A stretch of DNA of 64,000 nucleotides from Calothrix brevissima NIES-22 (GTDB lineage Bacteria; Cyanobacteriota; Cyanobacteriia; Cyanobacteriales; Nostocaceae), in NCBI RefSeq assembly GCF_002367995.1, contig NZ_AP018207.1, forward strand, positions 7,612,199 to 7,676,198, written 5' to 3'. Both the position numbers and the translations under genes were made by a program. This document shows, in pieces, positions 27,898 through 39,678 of the stretch (its first letter is position 1; each line of letters starts with the position of its first letter). Under the pieces are notes generated by a model, which worked only from the letters and a program-made list of their open reading frames with translations, was not told the DNA's origin and searched no databases.

Positions 27898-30882
27898 GTG
27901 GTATTACAAGTACAAACCAGCACTTACGAAGCTAAAACCCAAGAAATTGCTAAACAACTTCTTGAAGTCACCCAAGAAAATCGCTCGTTTTTTGCTTCCC
28001 TGCGCGATCAAATGCGCTGGGATGATAAATTACTAGCTTGGGCAATGAGCAATCCAGGTTTACGGGTGCAATTGTTTCGCTTTATCGACACATTACCAGC
28101 TTTACGCAGCAAACCAGAAATTGCTGCCCATTTACAAGAATATTTAGGAGATGAATCTGTAGAATTACCCGCAGCTTTAAAGGGAATGCTGAATTTTGCT
28201 AACCCTGATTCTATGCCGGGACAAGTAGCAGCCACAACAGTAGCAACAGCAGTAGAAACTCTCGCCCATAAATATATTTCTGGGGAAAATATTACACAAG
28301 TTATCAAAACCGTTGAACGGTTACGTAAAGATAAAATGGCTTTCACCATTGACTTACTTGGTGAAGCGGTAATTACGGAAACAGAAGCTAAATCTTACTT
28401 AGAACGCTATTCAGAATTAATTACACAATTGGTAGCAGCTGCGCAAAATTGGAAAACAATTCCCGCCATTGATGAAGCAGATGGGGAACAGCTACCAAAA
28501 GTCCAGGTTTCTGTGAAGTTAACGGCATTTTATTCTCAATTCGATCCTTTAGATGCTCTTGGTAGCGAGGCGAGAGTTAGCGATCGCATTCGGACTCTTT
28601 TACGTCATGCTAAAGAATTAGGCGCAGCTGTTCATTTTGATATGGAACAGTATGCTTATAAAGATATAACTCTTCACATCCTGAAAAATTTATTAATGGA
28701 AGAAGAGTTTCGCCAAAGAACAGATATTGGCATTACCATCCAAGCATATTTACGCGATAGCGAGCAAGATGCTAGAGATGTCATCGCTTGGTTGAAGCAG
28801 CGCGGTTATCCGTTAACCATTCGCTTAGTTAAAGGCGCATATTGGGATCAGGAAACTATCAAAGCTGCTCAAAAACATTGGACTCAGCCTGTATATAATG
28901 ACAAAGCCGCTAGTGATGCTAACTTTGAGGCGATAACTCAGCTATTGCTAGAAAATCATCAATATGTGTATGCTGCCATTGGTAGTCATAATGTGCGATC
29001 GCAAGCTAGAGCAATTGCCATAGCAGAAAGTTTACAAGTTCCCCGCCGTTGTTTTGAAATGCAAGTTCTCTACGGTATGGGCGATAAACTGGCGAAGGCT
29101 TTGGTGGATAAGGGTTACCGAGTTCGCGTTTATTGTCCCTACGGCGATTTATTACCGGGGATGGCTTATTTAATTCGGCGGTTGTTGGAAAATACGGCGA
29201 ATAGTTCGTTTTTACGGCAAAATTTGGAGAATAGACCTGTTGAGGAGTTAATAGCGCCTCCGAAGGTGGATTTGGCTCACGCAGAGACGCAGAGACGCAG
29301 AGAGGAGAAAGCAGGGTTTGTGGGTGCGGCGGATACTGATTATGCTGAGGAGGAGGCGAGAAGGAAGTCTGCTGTGGCTTTTGAGGCGGTTCATCAGCAG
29401 TTGGGAAGGACTTATTTACCGTTGATTAATGGTGAGTACGCTAATACTTCCATATTTATTGATTCTCTCAATCCTTCTAATTTTAGTCAGGTAGTTGGTA
29501 AGGTTGGACTAATTAGTATTGAACAAGCTGAAGAGGCGATGAAAGCAGCGAAGGCGGCTTTTCCTGCTTGGCGGAAAACTCCAGCGAAGCAACGCGCGGA
29601 TATTTTACGCAAAGCTGGGGATTTGATGTCACAACGACGCGCTGAACTTTCGGCTTGGATTGTCTTGGAAGTTGGCAAGCCTGTTAAGGAAGCAGATGCA
29701 GAGGTTTCTGAGGCGATAGACTTTTGTAAGTACTACGCCGATGAAATGGAACGGTTGGATAAAGGGGTAAATTATGATGTTTCGGGAGAAACCAACCGTT
29801 ATCTTTACCAACCACGGGGAATTGCGGTAGTAATTTCGCCTTGGAATTTCCCTTTAGCGATCGCCTGTGGTATGACTGTAGCAGCCTTAGTTGCTGGTAA
29901 TTGTACTCTCCTCAAACCTGCGGAAACATCTTCGGTAATTACCGCCAAACTCACAGAAATTTTAGTAGAAGCGGGGATTCCCCAAGGTGTCTATCAATAT
30001 GTACCCGGTAAAGGTTCCCAAGTTGGTGCATATTTGGTAAATCATCCCGATACCCATGTAATTGCTTTTACTGGTTCCCAAGAAGTAGGCTGTAGAATTT
30101 ACGCAGAAGCTTCTATCCTCAAACCCGGTCAAAAGCACATGAAACGAGTCATTGCCGAGATGGGTGGGAAGAATGCTATTATTGTAGATGAAAGTGCCGA
30201 TTTAGACCAAGCTGTTGTCGGCGTAGTGCAATCAGCCTTTGGTTATAGCGGACAAAAATGTTCTGCTTGTTCCAGAGTAATTGTCCTAGAATCAATTTAC
30301 GATAGCTTTGTGGAAAGGTTAGTAGAAGCCACCAAATCCTTGAATATTGGCGAAACCGAGTTACCAGGTACTCAAATCGGCCCGGTAATTGATGCCAACG
30401 CCCGCGATCGCATTCGCGAGTATATTGAAAAAGGGAAATCAGAAGCAAAATTAGCTTTAGAGTTACCCGCACCAGCACAAGGATATTTTATCGGCCCCGT
30501 TATCTTTAGCGAAGTCCCTCCCAATGGGATAATTGCCCAACAAGAAATATTTGGCCCTGTACTCGCTGTAATTCGCGTTAAAAACTTTGAGGAAGCATTA
30601 ACAGTAGCTAACGGTACTAACTATGCTTTAACTGGGGGACTGTATTCGCGCACCCCATCCCACATCCAGCAAGCACAGCAAGAGTTTGAAGTCGGGAATT
30701 TATACATTAACCGTACCATCACAGGTGCGATCGTTGCTCGTCAACCCTTTGGTGGCTTCAATCTTTCTGGCGTTGGTTCCAAAGCCGGCGGCCCCGACTA
30801 CCTGCTACAATTCCTAGAACCGCGCACCATCACAGAAAACATTCAACGCCAAGGTTTCGCACCCATCGAAGGCGCAGAATAA
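27898..30882 (+). CDS. pruA: Bifunctional proline dehydrogenase / L-glutamate gamma-semialdehyde dehydrogenase
   Basis: Fused proline catabolic enzyme, 994 aa. The N-terminal ProDH barrel (about residues 130-450: VSVKLTAFYSQFDP, HFDMEQYAYKD, IRLVKGAYWDQE and SHNVRSQARAIA) oxidises proline to P5C with FAD. The C-terminal aldehyde dehydrogenase (about 520-980: VISPWNFPLAIACG, FTGSQEVGC, catalytic Glu in IAEMGGKNAIIV and catalytic Cys in YSGQKCSACSR) oxidises the semialdehyde to glutamate. There is no DNA-binding domain, unlike enterobacterial PutA. GTG start with AGGAG ten bases upstream. The inter-domain linker holds AHAETQRRREE, the translation of an intergenic-type dispersed repeat (29276-29307). 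A palindrome at 30978 probably ends the transcript. Confidence 0.93.
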   Translation: MVLQVQTSTYEAKTQEIAKQLLEVTQENRSFFASLRDQMRWDDKLLAWAMSNPGLRVQLFRFIDTLPALRSKPEIAAHLQEYLGDESVELPAALKGMLNFANPDSMPGQVAATTVATAVETLAHKYISGENITQVIKTVERLRKDKMAFTIDLLGEAVITETEAKSYLERYSELITQLVAAAQNWKTIPAIDEADGEQLPKVQVSVKLTAFYSQFDPLDALGSEARVSDRIRTLLRHAKELGAAVHFDMEQYAYKDITLHILKNLLMEEEFRQRTDIGITIQAYLRDSEQDARDVIAWLKQRGYPLTIRLVKGAYWDQETIKAAQKHWTQPVYNDKAASDANFEAITQLLLENHQYVYAAIGSHNVRSQARAIAIAESLQVPRRCFEMQVLYGMGDKLAKALVDKGYRVRVYCPYGDLLPGMAYLIRRLLENTANSSFLRQNLENRPVEELIAPPKVDLAHAETQRRREEKAGFVGAADTDYAEEEARRKSAVAFEAVHQQLGRTYLPLINGEYANTSIFIDSLNPSNFSQVVGKVGLISIEQAEEAMKAAKAAFPAWRKTPAKQRADILRKAGDLMSQRRAELSAWIVLEVGKPVKEADAEVSEAIDFCKYYADEMERLDKGVNYDVSGETNRYLYQPRGIAVVISPWNFPLAIACGMTVAALVAGNCTLLKPAETSSVITAKLTEILVEAGIPQGVYQYVPGKGSQVGAYLVNHPDTHVIAFTGSQEVGCRIYAEASILKPGQKHMKRVIAEMGGKNAIIVDESADLDQAVVGVVQSAFGYSGQKCSACSRVIVLESIYDSFVERLVEATKSLNIGETELPGTQIGPVIDANARDRIREYIEKGKSEAKLALELPAPAQGYFIGPVIFSEVPPNGIIAQQEIFGPVLAVIRVKNFEEALTVANGTNYALTGGLYSRTPSHIQQAQQEFEVGNLYINRTITGAIVARQPFGGFNLSGVGSKAGGPDYLLQFLEPRTITENIQRQGFAPIEGAE

Positions 30883-30998: not shown

Positions 30999-31198
30999 AT
31001 TGAACCACAGAGACGCAGCGAAAAGTCGGAGCGCCGGCTTCCGGCGATGGCTTCTCCCAAGGGGAGACGCTGCGCGAACGCCAACGTCTTCGACGAACAG
31101 AACTTTTCAAGACAGAGAACGCAGAGAAATGATGAACAGAGATTTAATCATTAAAACAGTTGAATCTCCAGAGGAATTTACAGCAATCAAAGCAATTA

Positions 31199-32702
31199 CT
31201 GGAGTTTAGACTAAATGGGAGAGATGAAAGAGAAAAAGGGGATGTCTGATTGAAGACAGTCCCCCTTTCGGCAGAAGCTAAGAGAGAATCACCTACTCTT
31301 ATCTGCCAATATGAAACGTGCCAGACTCGAAGAATTTCGTCAAGCCGCCTATACGCATCTAGGCAAAGCACATGATGCAACATTTGAACTAACAGATGCG
31401 ATACTGTTGACCCGTAATGTCTACAGTCTGGCAGATTTATCTTTATCGCCAGTGTTTAGACGTAAATGGCCGAGTATCTATGAAGCGATACAAGATACCA
31501 AACCAGACCGTGAGAAATTAATGGAGTTATATATCAAGCAAATACCAACAGAAAAACGCATATTGTTGGCAGGAGACCATACAGCTTGGTCACGCCCAGA
31601 TGCGGTGACACTCAAAGAACGGACAATAGAACACAGTAGCACAGCGATCGCGGGAAATAAACCGATTACGATTGGGCAGGGATATAGTACTATAGCTTGG
31701 ATACCAGAGGATTCAGGAAGTTGGGCACTACCGCTGAGGCATGAACGGATTACCAGTTGGGACAATCCGATTGAGAAAGCAGTTGAACAACTCAAAAAGG
31801 TATGTGAATCAATGTCTGTTCGACCAATTTCGCTTTGGGACAGTGAATATGGTTGTGCGCCTTTCGTATTAAAGACAGCTAGTATAAAAGCCGATATCTT
31901 AGTTAGACTGCGTTCAAATCTGTGTCTATGGGGCGCACCACCTGCTTACTCTGGCAAGGGTCGTCCTCGCAAGCATGGTGCTCAATTTAAACTCAATGAA
32001 CCCTCAACCTGGGGCGAAGTGGCATCTGTGCTGGAAGTAAATGACCCAAAATTGGGACGAGTTAAAGTCAGTCTGTGGGAAGATTTGCATTTTCGCAAAG
32101 CTGCTGCACGCCCAATGATGCTACTGAAGGTGGAACGTCTTGATCTTGATGGCAATTTGAGAGTATTAAGACCCTTGTGGTTGGCTTGGGTTGGGGAACA
32201 AATGCCACCATTGGATGAAGTTTGGCGATTGTACTTGCGCCGATTCACGATTGACCATTGGTATCGTTTTCTTAAGCAACGCTTACATTGGACAGTACCA
32301 AAATTCAGTACTCCAGAACAATGTGAACATTGGAGTGACTTAATGCCGTTAATCACTTGGGAGTTATGGTTAGCTTGTGATATCGTTGCTGATAATCCTC
32401 TTCCTTGGCAGAAGTCAATGGATAAATTGACCCCAGGACGAGTTGCTCAAGCTATGGGTGGAGTTTTCGCCGCGATTGGTACTCCTACCTCTCCACCCAA
32501 ACCTCGTGGAAAGTCCCTTGGGTGGACACCAGGTAAAGTCCGTAACCGGAAAATACGATATCCAATTGTTAAAAAGACTGCTTCTAAACCACGCAAAGAG
32601 GAACAAAAATCTGCTTAATCTCAAATATCTTCATTCTTGAAGGTTGTGTTTTATTAACTCAGCACTGCTGGGTCATTTGTTGCTGTCTAGTCTAAACTCA
32701 AA
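31199..32702 (+). mobile_element. DDE-type insertion sequence, 1504 bp, 15-bp inverted ends, 6-bp target duplication
   Basis: The ends ctggagtttagacta (31199-31213) and tagtctaaactcaaa (32688-32702) are inverted repeats with 12 identical inner bases. The target duplication caatta is at 31193-31198 and 32703-32708. One transposase gene fills the element. Intact ends, an undamaged transposase and an exact target duplication suggest a recent insertion. Confidence 0.92.
31311..32618 (+). CDS. IS transposase, DDE type (IS4-superfamily-like)
   Basis: 435-aa transposase of the RNase-H-like DDE class. Candidate catalytic residues: first Asp in ILLAGDHTAWSRP, second Asp in PISLWDSEYGCAP, and the C-terminal YLRRFTIDHWYRFLKQRL, which follows the IS4-type Y-2-R-3-E-6-K pattern with Asp in place of Glu. 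The start at 31311 is the first good ATG (MKRARLEEFRQAAYTHL). It is complete inside the element and shows no frameshift. I do not assign a named IS family: the 6-bp target duplication does not fit typical IS701 (4 bp) or IS4 (9 bp or more). Confidence 0.88.
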   Translation: MKRARLEEFRQAAYTHLGKAHDATFELTDAILLTRNVYSLADLSLSPVFRRKWPSIYEAIQDTKPDREKLMELYIKQIPTEKRILLAGDHTAWSRPDAVTLKERTIEHSSTAIAGNKPITIGQGYSTIAWIPEDSGSWALPLRHERITSWDNPIEKAVEQLKKVCESMSVRPISLWDSEYGCAPFVLKTASIKADILVRLRSNLCLWGAPPAYSGKGRPRKHGAQFKLNEPSTWGEVASVLEVNDPKLGRVKVSLWEDLHFRKAAARPMMLLKVERLDLDGNLRVLRPLWLAWVGEQMPPLDEVWRLYLRRFTIDHWYRFLKQRLHWTVPKFSTPEQCEHWSDLMPLITWELWLACDIVADNPLPWQKSMDKLTPGRVAQAMGGVFAAIGTPTSPPKPRGKSLGWTPGKVRNRKIRYPIVKKTASKPRKEEQKSA

Positions 32703-33282
32703 CAATTAGAATCGCCGTATTTCAACAAGAACAAGGAGTAGATTCTGCCCTAGAATTTGATGGTAAAGATGAAACATCTCAACATTTAATTGCTTATTTA
32801 AATCGGGAAGCCGTCGGTACTACGAGAATTAGATATTTAGATAATCAAACAGCAAAAATAGAAAGACTCGCTGTTTTATCACCAGCCAGAGGAAAGGGTA
32901 TTGCTAAAAAAATTATGGAAAAAGCAATAGAAATTATTGCTAATCAAAATATTCCAGAAATTGTAGTGCATTCTCAAGCATATATCAAAGCTTTATATGA
33001 AAATTTAGGTTTTATCCCTGAAGGAGAAATCTTTATAGAAGCGGATATTCCTCATGTAAAAATGAAAAAGAAATTATCAGATAAATATCAAGATATATAA
33101 TGTAAACGCTCAAAAAAAACAGGGATGCCTAAATTCCTGGTAATTATACGGAAATAAAAAATATTTCTTATAAAAATGCTTATCAGCGTAAAACTTATGT
33201 AAATAAGCGCTTCTAAGCCTTTTCAATATGTAAAAAATGACGTTAATTTATCAACAAATGTATCCAGAGACATCAATCAACT

Positions 33283-33456
33283 ATGCGATTAACAAAACCA
33301 CAAAAGAGTACAATTAAACAGTTACCAAACTTGACAGAACTGAGCGATCGCGATTTAGAAATACTAGTCGGGGGAAAAAGCTCTACTACTTGGGATAATG
33401 GTAGTACTGTCGGTTATAGTATTGGTAGTACAGGCGGTATTATTATCGGTTGGTAG
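33283..33456 (+). CDS. Double-glycine leader peptide (putative bacteriocin/RiPP precursor), 57 aa
   Basis: A small frame encoding a 31-aa N-terminal segment that ends in LSDRDLEILVGG. This fits the double-glycine leader consensus LSxxELxxIxGG at every key position: Leu -12, Ser -11, acidic -8, Leu -7, hydrophobic -4, Gly -2, Gly -1. The remaining 26 residues begin KSSTTWDNGS and end GGIIIGW; they are rich in Gly, Ser, Thr and Ile, with spaced Gly residues as in helix-pairing bacteriocins. Known for the family: a C39-peptidase ABC exporter cleaves after GG. No such exporter, immunity or modification gene lies within this window, so it is an orphan precursor, as is frequent in cyanobacteria. 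The ribosome site is weak (AGAGA). The function as a secreted peptide is inferred. Confidence 0.65.
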   Translation: MRLTKPQKSTIKQLPNLTELSDRDLEILVGGKSSTTWDNGSTVGYSIGSTGGIIIGW

Positions 33457-33606
33457 TTGAAAAAGTGAATTCATCCAGGTAGATATAAATTATGGGTAGG
33501 GTGTGTTATGCCGTAGGCTAACGCACCTTAAATTATTAATTATGCATTGGTGCGTTGCGCTGCGCGACAACACACCCTACTTATAAATGTCTTTAATTTT
33601 GAATTG

Positions 33607-35625
33607 TTAACAGCTACTATCCTCATCCACCGAATATGCTCGATCTGGTAAAAACAGAGTAAATCTACTACCCTTACCTAAAGTCGATTCTACCGTTACA
33701 TCACCACCATGTAACCTGGCTAATTTGCGCGTTAAAGCTAAACCTAAACCAGTACCTTCATATTGACGATTTAACCGACTATCAAGTTGTTTAAAAGGCT
33801 CAAAAAGAAAATGAAATTGATTAGCATCAATCCCAATACCAGTATCTGCAACTGTAAATGTAATTCCATTGCTAACTTTTTTCACCTCTAAAGCAACCTC
33901 TCCCTTAGGAGTAAATTTAATCGCATTAGTAAGTAAATTTAACAGCATTTGTTTAATCCGCCGCTCATCAGCAACACAAATATCAGCTTGGGGTGCTATA
34001 TGGCTGGTGATTTGTAATCCTTTATCTAAAGCTTGATCGCCAACTGTAGAAATTACAGAATTACATATATCTATCACTCGTAAAGGTAATAGCAAAAGTT
34101 CTTCTTTACCTGCTTCTACCTTCGATAAATCGAGAATATCGTTGATCAGTGCTAATAAATGTTCGCCACTACTATACACACAACTAATATACTCTTTTTG
34201 CTTGTCATTGAGAGTCCCTACCATTTCCTGTTGCAGCAATTGAGATAAACCCATAATTGCATTCAGAGGCGTGCGCAATTCATGACTCATAGTAGCTAGA
34301 AATTCACTTTTAGCACGACTCCCAGCTTCAGCCGCAGCTTGGGATGCACGCAATTTTAATTCTGTTTGCTTGCGTTCGGTAATATCTTCAATAATAGTTA
34401 AGAAATATTCCGGTTTACCATAACTATCGGGAATGACGGAAACTGATAAATGAGTCCAAACTAATCCTCCCTGTTTATGTAAAAACAGCCTTTCCATTTC
34501 CAGGCGATGTCTTTCAATTAGCTGTTGTGGATCTGCACTAATTCCCGAAATTAGTTGTTCTAAAAGTTCTAAATCGCCAGTTTGCGGAGAGACATAATTT
34601 GTGAATTGTTTACCACATAATTCTTCACGGCTATAACCCAGCATTTGACATAGTGCGGGATTGACATCGACTATTTGCGCTTGCATATCTATCAGTCCAA
34701 TCCCGATAGAAGAACATTCAAAAATTGCCCGAAATTTTGCTTCACTTTGACGTAGTGCAGCTTCTGCGGCGTTGCGTTCGCTGGCTTCTATGGCGAGGGT
34801 GACAAAATCTGCAATCGAGCCGGCAAAGTTCTCTTCTTCTAATGTCCATTGACGCACTTCACCGCAATGTTCGTGGGAGACTACGCCGACTAATCTACCT
34901 CCCAACCAAATTGGCGCATTCAATAGAGATGCAATTCCTAATTCAAAAAGATAAGATTGAGATAATTCTTCAGTTCTACTATCGTTGATGGCATCATCAA
35001 CCGCAAGGCTACGCTCTGCTTCTAAAGCTTGGAAATAATTAGGGTAATTAGCTTTGAGCAGTGATAAGCCATTGCTGTGTTCTTTGGTTCTGACATCATA
35101 CAAATCTACACATTCCAAGGTAGAGTGGTCTTGATTATATAACCACACCCCTACTCGCTCTACTGAGATGGTACGTGCAGCAGCTTCTGTAATCTCTTGG
35201 AAGGCGGCTTTGAGATTACCTTGTTGAAATGTCTTACTTCTTGCTAGTTGCACTAGGGTTTGGCTTTGTTTTCGGCGCGCATTTTCTCGGATTTGCAACA
35301 CTTCTTGGGAATTTTTAGATTCAGTAATATCTCTAGCCGCAACCACCTGCATTTTTTGACCTGAGTAAGAAATCACTTTGCCTTGAAATTCTGCTGAAAA
35401 AGTAGAGCCATCCTTTCTGACTACAATGACTTCACAAGGGATTTCCGAACCAGAAAGTATATTTTTTGTCATTAACTCTTGTGATTCTAGCGCAATCAGT
35501 TCCCGGCCGTTTTTACCGATCGCTTCTGCAAGTTCATAATCAGTCATTTCTACCAGGACATAATTAGCATTGAAAATTATTCCCCGATCTTGTATTATTA
35601 TGCCTTCAAACGTTGCTTCAGACAT
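33607..35625 (-). CDS. PAS-GAF-PAS sensor histidine kinase, 672 aa
   Basis: Cytoplasmic sensor kinase without membrane spans. Domain order: PAS (about 1-105, ending [16 protein letters not shown]), GAF (about 125-285, [18 protein letters not shown]), second PAS with PAC (about 295-420, [18 protein letters not shown] to [13 protein letters not shown]), HisKA with phosphoacceptor His448 in [13 protein letters not shown], and HATPase_c with N-box [13 protein letters not shown]1 VADTGIGID and G2 GTGLGLAL. No receiver or Hpt domain follows, so phosphate goes to a separate regulator. The N-terminus starts inside the usual PAS first strand and may be shortened. The gene stands alone; the small GG-leader peptide lies 150 bp beyond its stop, on the opposite strand. 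Confidence 0.9.
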
Positions 35626-38028: not shown

Positions 38029-38331
38029 TTAAGAAGAACGCCGTGCTACTTGATTTAGCCATTCTATCAGGGGTCTTAAGGTTCCTGGTAATGCTGCTTC
38101 ACTGACTGTGACTGTATGTTGTTTACCCTGGTCTTCCACTGTTAATTTATATTGAAAGCGATCGCTCTGGGGATTAGGTGAAGTAATTTTTTCTGGTAAA
38201 TTAAACAAACCAGCCGCTTCCACCAGTCTAGGTAGTTCTTGGGCTTCGTTGGGTGGCAGAGTAGTTGTATCAACGGTTGTTTTCTTGCTAATTCCAGCAA
38301 AGCCGCCTGTGCGTTCAAAGGAGATCCGCAT
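38029..38331 (-). CDS. Emfourin-like inhibitor of protealysin-type proteases, 100 aa
   Basis: Matches the emfourin family (protealysin inhibitor): MRISFERTGGFAGISKKTTVDT at the N-terminus, LPPNEAQELPRLVEAAGLFNLP in the middle and a C-terminal VSEAALPGTLRPLIEWLNQ. Emfourin is a slow-binding protein inhibitor of the M4 protease protealysin in Serratia, encoded beside it. Here the gene lies 264 bp downstream of an M4 protease gene of the protealysin type on the same strand, the same arrangement. No signal peptide: both are cytoplasmic in their primary sequence. The family call rests on pattern and context. Confidence 0.85.
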   Translation of the reverse strand: MRISFERTGGFAGISKKTTVDTTTLPPNEAQELPRLVEAAGLFNLPEKITSPNPQSDRFQYKLTVEDQGKQHTVTVSEAALPGTLRPLIEWLNQVARRSS

Positions 38332-38595
38332 TGTTTACTCTCCGTTGTCCTATCTAGGGGAAAATAAAAAAACTGGAAGATTTTAACTGTCATCTTCCAG
38401 TGTAACAACAAAGGACAACTTAGTATAAATGCTGAATACTAAATGATGAGTGATGAAAACTTCATCATTGTACTAAGGGAACTCCAAACAATAAACAACA
38501 GCTTCATTTCGTTGACGGTTGACGGTTGACTGTGAACTGTCAACGGTGAACAATAGCAATGAAATATTTTTTACTTGGATGTCCCTAACTGTTGG

Positions 38596-39678
38596 CTATT
38601 TGATTACACCTACTTTTTGCCAAGCATTCTGTACAGCTTTTTGTTCCTTACTATTGTTACCGTACAGTTCGCCAGCTACTTTAATTGTGGTGTTGGCGGC
38701 TGTTTTAAAATTAGCATTACCACGTAGGCGATCGCGCAAAGTAATATACCAAATTTTTCCAGCTTTTTCCCAAGCATAGCCGCCAATTTCCACAGCCGCT
38801 AGGTAAAAAGCATAGTTAGGAATACCGGAATTAATATGTACTCCGGCGTTATCTTCCGTACCAGTATATTTATCTTTCATATATGCTGGTTGGGGATCTT
38901 TACCTAAAACTGGATCGTCGTATGCGGTTCCTGGTGCTTTGAGGGAACGAATACCCACCCCTTTGACTTTTGGTGCTAAAAGTCCTTCGCCAATAATCCA
39001 GTCTGCTGCTTCTGCTGTTTGATTTTTACTTTTCTGCTTAACTAAAGCGCCAAATACATCAGAAAATGACTCATTCAGTGCTCCTGATTCAGCGTAATAC
39101 TGTAAACCAGCTTCATATTGAGTCACACCATGAGTTAATTCATGGGCAATCACATCTATCGATTTAGTGAAGCGTTGGAATAATTCACCATCACCATCAC
39201 CGTAAACCATTTGGTCGCCATTCCAGAAGGCATTATCATATTTAACGCCGTAATGGACGGTAGAATCTAAACGCAGTCCTTTGTCATCTATAGAATTGCG
39301 ATCGAATATCTCATAAAACATGTCATAGGTCGCACCAGCTGCATCATAAGCTTCATTTACGGCTTGATCGGTACTAGGCGGATCGCCTTCACCCCGTACT
39401 AATTTACCTGGTAAATTTTCTGAGAATTGGGCATCATAAATAGTGCGGCGCTTTACACCTGGGGATGGTGCAAAGGAAACAGCACCTACTATATTTCTTC
39501 TACCGCGCAATTGTGCGGAAACATTTAATGTTTGAAAAGCCCAACTACGCTGTTCTGGGTTACCATTTACGGCAACATTTTGCAGCATATGTGGGGGAAT
39601 AATACAACAGATAGGGCATCTAGAGTAGCCTGGATGTTTACAGTTAAAACCAGTAGATTTATTCTTATTTCGAGCCAT
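38596..39678 (-). CDS. M4-family metalloprotease, protealysin-like
   Basis: Thermolysin-family zinc protease, 360 aa. The catalytic zinc motif is in VIAHELTHGVTQYEAG (HExxH), the third ligand Glu in GALNESFSDVFGALV, and the active-site His is in DNAGVHINSGIPNYAFYLA. It has a short propeptide with the protealysin-type motif (CPICCIIPPHML) rather than the long thermolysin propeptide, and no signal peptide, so it is likely made as an intracellular precursor. It is followed by the emfourin-like gene. The start at 39678 (MARNKNKSTG) has GGAG ten bases upstream. An extra Cys cluster (CKHPGYSRCPICC) in the propeptide may bind metal or form disulfides. Confidence 0.92.
   Translation of the reverse strand: MARNKNKSTGFNCKHPGYSRCPICCIIPPHMLQNVAVNGNPEQRSWAFQTLNVSAQLRGRRNIVGAVSFAPSPGVKRRTIYDAQFSENLPGKLVRGEGDPPSTDQAVNEAYDAAGATYDMFYEIFDRNSIDDKGLRLDSTVHYGVKYDNAFWNGDQMVYGDGDGELFQRFTKSIDVIAHELTHGVTQYEAGLQYYAESGALNESFSDVFGALVKQKSKNQTAEAADWIIGEGLLAPKVKGVGIRSLKAPGTAYDDPVLGKDPQPAYMKDKYTGTEDNAGVHINSGIPNYAFYLAAVEIGGYAWEKAGKIWYITLRDRLRGNANFKTAANTTIKVAGELYGNNSKEQKAVQNAWQKVGVIK

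Follow-up and report, generated by a model that had tools for sequence, protein, structure and literature searches.

A double-glycine-leader peptide gene of Calothrix brevissima NIES-22 and the family of Gly/Ser-rich precursors to which it belongs

The peptide gene and its surroundings

The sequence analysed was a stretch of 64,000 nucleotides, referred to below as the window. An earlier note on this DNA had pointed out a 57-aa frame with a double-glycine leader motif and a 26-residue core, situated between a disrupted acetyltransferase gene and a PAS/GAF kinase gene. The frame was confirmed by translation and by a strict leader pattern; its placement was confirmed as well, as a GNAT acetyltransferase gene split by a DDE_5 element lies on one side and a convergent kinase gene on the other. 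The features of the locus are as follows, with the evidence for each in brackets.

27898..30882, + strand: PutA (proline dehydrogenase/aldehyde dehydrogenase), used as synteny anchor (Pfam; synteny)
31112..31198, + strand: 5' remnant of the GNAT acetyltransferase gene (alignment with the intact Tolypothrix gene)
31202..32699, + strand: insertion element with 12-bp terminal inverted repeats, ends approximate (DDE_5 transposase ORF 31311-32618)
32698..33105, + strand: 3' remnant of the GNAT acetyltransferase gene (alignment with the intact Tolypothrix gene)
33101..33282, + strand: conserved upstream region (162/182 bases the same as in Tolypothrix)
33283..33456, + strand, stop codon included: double-glycine-leader precursor gene, 57 aa (ORF reading; orthologue at L035:6001-6156)
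33283..33375, + strand: leader, residues 1-31, GG-terminated, with Leu-12, Leu-7 and Leu-4 (dN 0.057, dS 0.367 versus Tolypothrix)
33376..33453, + strand: predicted core KSSTTWDNGSTVGYSIGSTGGIIIGW, 26 residues, without Cys, Trp-terminated (translation; core DNA comparison with Tolypothrix)
33493..33586, no strand assigned: dispersed repeat, palindromic and about 94 nt long, located between the peptide gene and the kinase gene convergent to it (very stable fold, z -7.6 for 33490-33590)
33607..35625, - strand: PAS/GAF histidine kinase, convergent to the peptide gene and kept in the orthologous locus (Pfam; Tolypothrix locus)

The terminal inverted repeats of the insertion element were located at 31202-31213 and 32688-32699. 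The own genome contains at least 46 matches to the repeat at 33493-33586, and two of these fall at that same place (best 40 of 78 candidates scored). A promoter/terminator consensus scan near the peptide gene gave a result no better than shuffles, and no promoter was identified by it.

Translation of 33283-33456 on the + strand gives MRLTKPQKSTIKQLPNLTELSDRDLEILVGG and, following the predicted cut, KSSTTWDNGSTVGYSIGSTGGIIIGW. The leader of this ORF contains the motif LSDRDLEILVGG, with hydrophobic residues at -4, -7 and -12 and a terminal GG, as in substrates of peptidase-containing ABC transporters. The consensus for GG leaders is given as hydrophobic residues at these three positions and GG, GA or GS at -2/-1 (PMC6363468). 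Position -8 is Asp in the window peptide; the ComA consensus is reported to have Glu there (PMC6363468).

Short ORFs (35-120 aa) were scanned for leader patterns in the window and, as controls, in 60 dinucleotide-preserving shuffles of it. The strict pattern occurred once in the window, in the ORF at 33283-33456, versus 0 times in the 60 shuffles. A looser hydrophobic/GG pattern occurred twice in the window versus 32 times in the 60 shuffles; the informative pattern is therefore the strict one alone. Taken with the syntenic orthologue described below, the strict pattern rejects a chance origin, and 33283-33456 is a real gene. To place 57 aa below gene-calling limits, as had been done, looks too strong a statement. 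Within the codons for leader residues SDRD, at 33344-33351, lies the octamer GCGATCGC, which we take to be HIP1 and which is present in 63 copies in the window.

For the gene content of the window, 39 non-overlapping ORFs of at least 100 aa were run against Pfam. None of these was recognised as a C39 exporter or contained a domain characteristic of RiPP modification, which upholds, for ORFs of this size, the earlier claim of a window free of exporter and modification genes; an M4 peptidase, a zinc ABC transporter and two methyltransferases of generic type are among them. As to immunity, the claim is narrowed to the statement that no such gene beside the peptide was recognised among these ORFs by Pfam or among the ORFs of the Tolypothrix locus L035 by eye; to our knowledge, no general model for bacteriocin immunity genes exists. 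The thermolysin-type M4 peptidase gene, at 38032-39678, adjoins an emfourin gene.

The window peptide has no family in Pfam or PHROGs, and no NCBIfam cut-off was passed by the peptide or by nine relatives tested. The core had been described as unlike any bacteriocin that could be named, and indeed no curated bacteriocin family was found above its cut-off.

The orthologue in Tolypothrix

A peptide search of genome contigs returned one relative, in Tolypothrix sp. FACHB-123 (L035:6001-6156), in a locus having the gene order PutA - GNAT - peptide - convergent kinase in common with the window. The GNAT gene is intact in Tolypothrix sp. FACHB-123 and split in the window. Beside the orthologue, no exporter gene was recognised among the L035 ORFs by eye. 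Weak matches at L034, L021 and L024 were rejected as relatives, being chance-like with stop-filled frames (for L024 and L021 in one orientation only).

DNA identity between the two loci is 96.0% for putA, 93.2% for the 3' part of the GNAT gene, 89.0% (162/182) upstream of the peptide gene, 91.3% (84/92) for the leader, 92.0% (138/150) downstream, adjoining but outside an insertion in Tolypothrix, and 88.6% for the kinase gene. For the core it is 73.0% (46/63), with 17 mismatches plus 18 gap positions. The leader is thus conserved and the core DNA diverged between well-matched flanks; therefore, the leader has been kept while the core has been rewritten. At the protein level, 27 of the 31 leader residues are the same. 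The Tolypothrix core is six residues shorter than that of the window, and both cores have an early TW and a terminal W.

The leader has a dN/dS of about 0.16, and its residues 10-31 have dN 0.020 and dS 0.428, with five synonymous changes and one non-synonymous change. Values for comparison genes of the same pair are dN 0.010 and dS 0.159 for putA and dN 0.045 and dS 0.508 for the kinase gene. The leader, in a frame open in both species, thus appears to be under purifying selection, as supported by estimates from one pair and 10 changes. For the core, alignment by hand gave unreliable values of dN 0.56 and dS 0.74; its divergence may reflect relaxed or diversifying selection, which one species pair does not distinguish. 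The earlier note had made its reading depend on an orthologous small ORF in a related genome and on a synonymous/non-synonymous ratio away from neutrality, and both were found, the latter for the leader. Of the conservation that it had proposed to look for, the leader part was recovered and the core part was not.

At the PutA-GNAT locus of seven other genomes of the genus, neither peptide DNA nor a protein match was found, within a check limited in G002, G003 and G004 by contig ends within 1.6 kb of putA. In G006 this locus has kept the kinase gene and has a different gene in between.

The peptide family, the TPS-domain exoprotein and candidate exporters

The window peptide is a member of a family of Gly/Ser-rich, Trp-containing GG precursors. 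Single-sequence searches gave matches in 6 of 58 genomes at E 0.01, the own genome included and all within the genus, and in 5 of the 217 genomes of the taxonomic family at E 0.001. A profile of 19 members (A1), with the best 29 candidates per genome scored, gave 19 matches at E 1.3e-8 or better in six of the eight genus genomes, weak matches (1e-5 to 1e-3) in 8 further genomes of the 217 and nothing at E 0.001 in the remaining 203. Five members are in the own genome by the same search (best 29 candidates scored). The earlier description as an orphan secreted-peptide precursor therefore holds for the C39-type leader and for C39 matches, which lie only outside the window, but the peptide is not alone.

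Among the 19 A1 cores, all contain Trp, 8 are Trp-terminated and 13 are without Cys; the mean Gly+Ser fraction is 0.47. Trp in every core is partly a matter of construction, because the rows were gathered by whole-peptide similarity. A leader-only profile in which the core was unused (A2; best 34 candidates scored) gave 18 strong matches in the same six genus genomes and two weak ones outside, one having a core with Trp and the other a His/Lys-rich core without Trp. The family is more fairly checked by the leader-only search, which recovers almost the same members. That cores are more substituted than leaders family-wide failed to hold: 1 of 11 pairs was nominally significant (uncorrected p 0.0035). 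In nine of the ten remaining pairs, the core exceeded the leader in gap positions.

Plasmids gave nothing in a tblastn search; among viral contigs scanned with the family alignment there were 36 pattern matches, none of them a relative. To date the family is known only from one genus plus Tolypothrix sp. FACHB-123. As a separate observation, genome G028 (L190, L104, L110) contains GG precursors with His/Lys-rich cores (SGHHKHNKREHYKHEHKHNKK...), which are perhaps metal-binding secreted peptides.

In six of six genomes, namely the own one and G001, G002, G003, G005 and G007, a member of the family is encoded directly upstream of a large protein of some 1180 aa. In the own genome this protein contains a TPS secretion domain (E 5.4e-64); along its length, the five others share 74-76% identity with it. 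Among the eight genus genomes searched, only these six have full-length relatives at that level; G004 and G006 have partial matches only (42-52% identity). Peptide tandem and TPS gene form a single physical block, and several siblings next to the TPS exoprotein have low-complexity Gly/Ser repeats. On the far side of the exoprotein (L081:8595-15393 and L138-L142, six genomes), three similar small proteins are encoded, of which the one tested has a vWA domain.

The window peptide has no adjacent TPS gene, and neither have four other members in the genomes of A1. A tandem of three members lies at L080 in the own genome, where no TPS relative was found at E 1e-100; three further members, at L143 and at the syntenic pair L144/L145, are solitary in the stretches read. 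A search for literature on GG peptides beside TPS exoproteins or on this family returned nothing in titles and abstract openings, with subscription journals mostly outside its scope.

The genome search for C39-domain ABC transporters that had been suggested gave nine C39-peptidase matches above cut-off, six of them strong, all outside the window. A short-type C39 ABC protein of the own genome, L077 (G000:C1:5524497), lies beside genes for a CTB peptide, a cNMP-binding protein, HlyD and a second ABC protein, about 2.1 Mb from the window peptide gene. When 44 short-type C39 proteins (<820 aa; L130 of G004 not included) were clustered, they fell into 17 groups, of which only that of L077 was distributed over precisely the six genomes that have the peptide family. 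A wider clustering comprised 71 C39 proteins of short and long types (330 residues from the C39 start). Here the L077 group again matched the six-genome distribution when the identity threshold was 75% (1 of 23 groups) or 80% (1 of 24). At 70% it merged with relatives including L130 (G004) and L154 (G006), which are 72-73% identical to L077, and the pattern was gone. A tree of 19 L077-like rows placed the six group members on one side of a branch that is not well supported (77/76), and given this branch L130 and L154 may or may not be orthologues of L077.

The distance from the L077-group exporter to the peptides is 24.6 kb in G001, 24.7 kb in G002, 20.5 kb in G003, 40.2 kb in G005 and 950 kb in G007; in the own genome it is 613 kb to the nearest peptide cluster. 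In G007, relatives (69-82% identity) of the own CTB, cNMP and HlyD genes adjoin the peptides; in the stretches fetched from G001, G002, G003 and G005, no cNMP/HlyD relatives were found at E 1e-40. L077 is the best single candidate exporter for the window peptide. The link is a weak one, because the six-genome pattern depends on the identity threshold, and the CTB peptide of its own cluster may be the real substrate of L077. The two genomes without the peptide family, G004 and G006, also have the PutA least like that of the window (92%), so the patterns may reflect kinship alone, through a single ancestral gain or loss.

Proposed role and known systems

We consider it fairly probable that the window holds a functional secreted-peptide gene, with C39 export in trans and a core that is probably a cell-surface or matrix peptide. 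The 31-residue leader would be bound, by way of Leu-12, Leu-7 and Leu-4, by the C39 domain of an ABC transporter whose gene lies elsewhere in the genome; the groove of the C39 domain LahT150 is reported to accommodate the positions equivalent to Leu-12/Leu-7/Leu-4/GG (PMC6363468). This transporter would cut the precursor after Gly31 and export the 26-residue Gly/Ser/Thr core to the surface or the medium. At the cell surface or in the matrix, the core would serve as one of a family of peptides whose other members are often encoded next to a TPS-domain exoprotein; the window copy is a dispersed member, and its core is strongly different between two species. Export and trimming in trans by a C39 exporter are proposed because of established knowledge of the GG leader type.

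A class II-type (microcin-like) bacteriocin killing related cyanobacteria, with immunity conferred by a gene located elsewhere or by a small one that escaped recognition, would suit a leader type common to bacteriocins (PMC6363468), the strong difference between the cores of the orthologue pair and the presence of several paralogues. It is nevertheless judged unlikely: no immunity-like or exporter gene was recognised nearby (window ORFs of at least 100 aa; L035 by eye), no bacteriocin model was above cut-off, and the low-complexity Gly/Ser repeats of several siblings beside the TPS exoprotein look structural. A surface or matrix role is somewhat likelier.

HetC of Nostoc PCC 7120 is a C39 exporter whose substrate is described as an open question and may be encoded elsewhere in the genome (PMC10986499), and C39 proteins in frames of >1000 aa are present in the own genome. 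A signalling peptide, perhaps exported by such a HetC-like long-type protein, is still quite improbable. A general heterocyst signal is ruled out because 203 of the 217 genomes of the taxonomic family gave nothing at E 0.001 when the best 29 candidates of each genome were scored, and no linked receptor was recognised.

Alteration of the core before export, for instance at W-x-D/N motifs by a radical-SAM enzyme, would make the product a modified RiPP. Radical-SAM action on such motifs is an idea from cyclophane peptides, and Trp in all 19 A1 cores agrees with it, as do sub-threshold matches to TIGR04149 (rSAM target; cut-off 25 bits) of 16.7 bits for the window peptide and 19.0 for the Tolypothrix orthologue. 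Against these stand the lack of a typical modifying enzyme among the window ORFs of at least 100 aa and the core without Cys: lanthipeptides have Cys and Ser/Thr in the core, and no lanthionine can form in this one because it has no Cys. A GrrM radical-SAM maturase was rejected as partner, as the corresponding model (TIGR04261) was over cut-off in only one of the eight genus genomes, the own best match having 112.9 of 310 bits. Modification is accordingly thought very improbable. Finally, the ORF could be functionless, either a decaying orphan copy or a chance frame. Its occurrence as a single gene without a match at the PutA-GNAT locus in the other genus genomes, and the poorly conserved core, might point that way. 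This is regarded as very improbable too, since the leader is apparently under purifying selection, the frame is open in both species and the strict pattern was seen 0 times in 60 shuffles.

As a tentative extension of the surface or matrix reading, GG peptides exported by a C39 (type I-like) route and the TPS exoprotein (type V) might together build a composite sheath, adhesin or recognition layer on the cyanobacterial filaments, with the window peptide as a dispersed member. If so, changing cores would give strain identity. GG-motif proteins are reported to be prevalent in cyanobacteria, few having a tested job (PMC4997328). With a fixed genomic partner, the TPS exoprotein, for part of its members, this small family is a compact model for asking if such peptides act as antibiotics, as signals or as building material.

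Three known systems were compared. The CTB family of bacteriocins (NF038167) likewise has cyanobacterial GG leaders. The window peptide reaches 15.2 bits against a cut-off of 32, with the match around the leader end only, whereas the CTB peptide beside L077, taken as comparison, passes the NCBIfam cut-off. CTB cores are mostly without Trp (Trp in 2 of 36 ORFs from the genomes of the window family, under a loose filter with possible wrong frames), in contrast to the Trp-containing cores of the window family.

The NHLP/N11P leader models are contained in NCBIfam, and none of them was among the NCBIfam matches up to E 10. NHLP/N11P precursors are, like the window peptide, cyanobacterial and of GG type, with cores described as rich in Gly, Cys, Ser and Thr (Wang et al. 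2011, PMC3140520). That survey is described as having screened regions around exporter clusters, so solitary genes like that of the window peptide would lie beyond its reach (PMC3140520).

In the EbfG1-4/PteB system of Synechococcus elongatus PCC 7942, in which the EbfG members are biofilm proteins with a GG motif, there are likewise small GG precursors, a C39 exporter and several paralogues per genome, and the tandem siblings of the window peptide are a further likeness. The EbfG genes adjoin the exporter gene (locus numbers 1133, 1134; PMC4997328), whereas the window peptide gene has no linked exporter, no C39 match and hence no adjacent pteB-type exporter being found in the window. The mature EbfG parts are given as 6-7 kDa, compared with a predicted core of 26 residues here, and are said to have no homologues in other cyanobacteria (PMC4997328); amyloid data have been reported for the EbfG proteins (PMC9981879). 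By analogy with EbfG (PMC4997328, PMC9981879), the Gly/Ser-rich, Trp-framed cores and the siblings beside the TPS exoprotein would fit a part of the cell surface or matrix.
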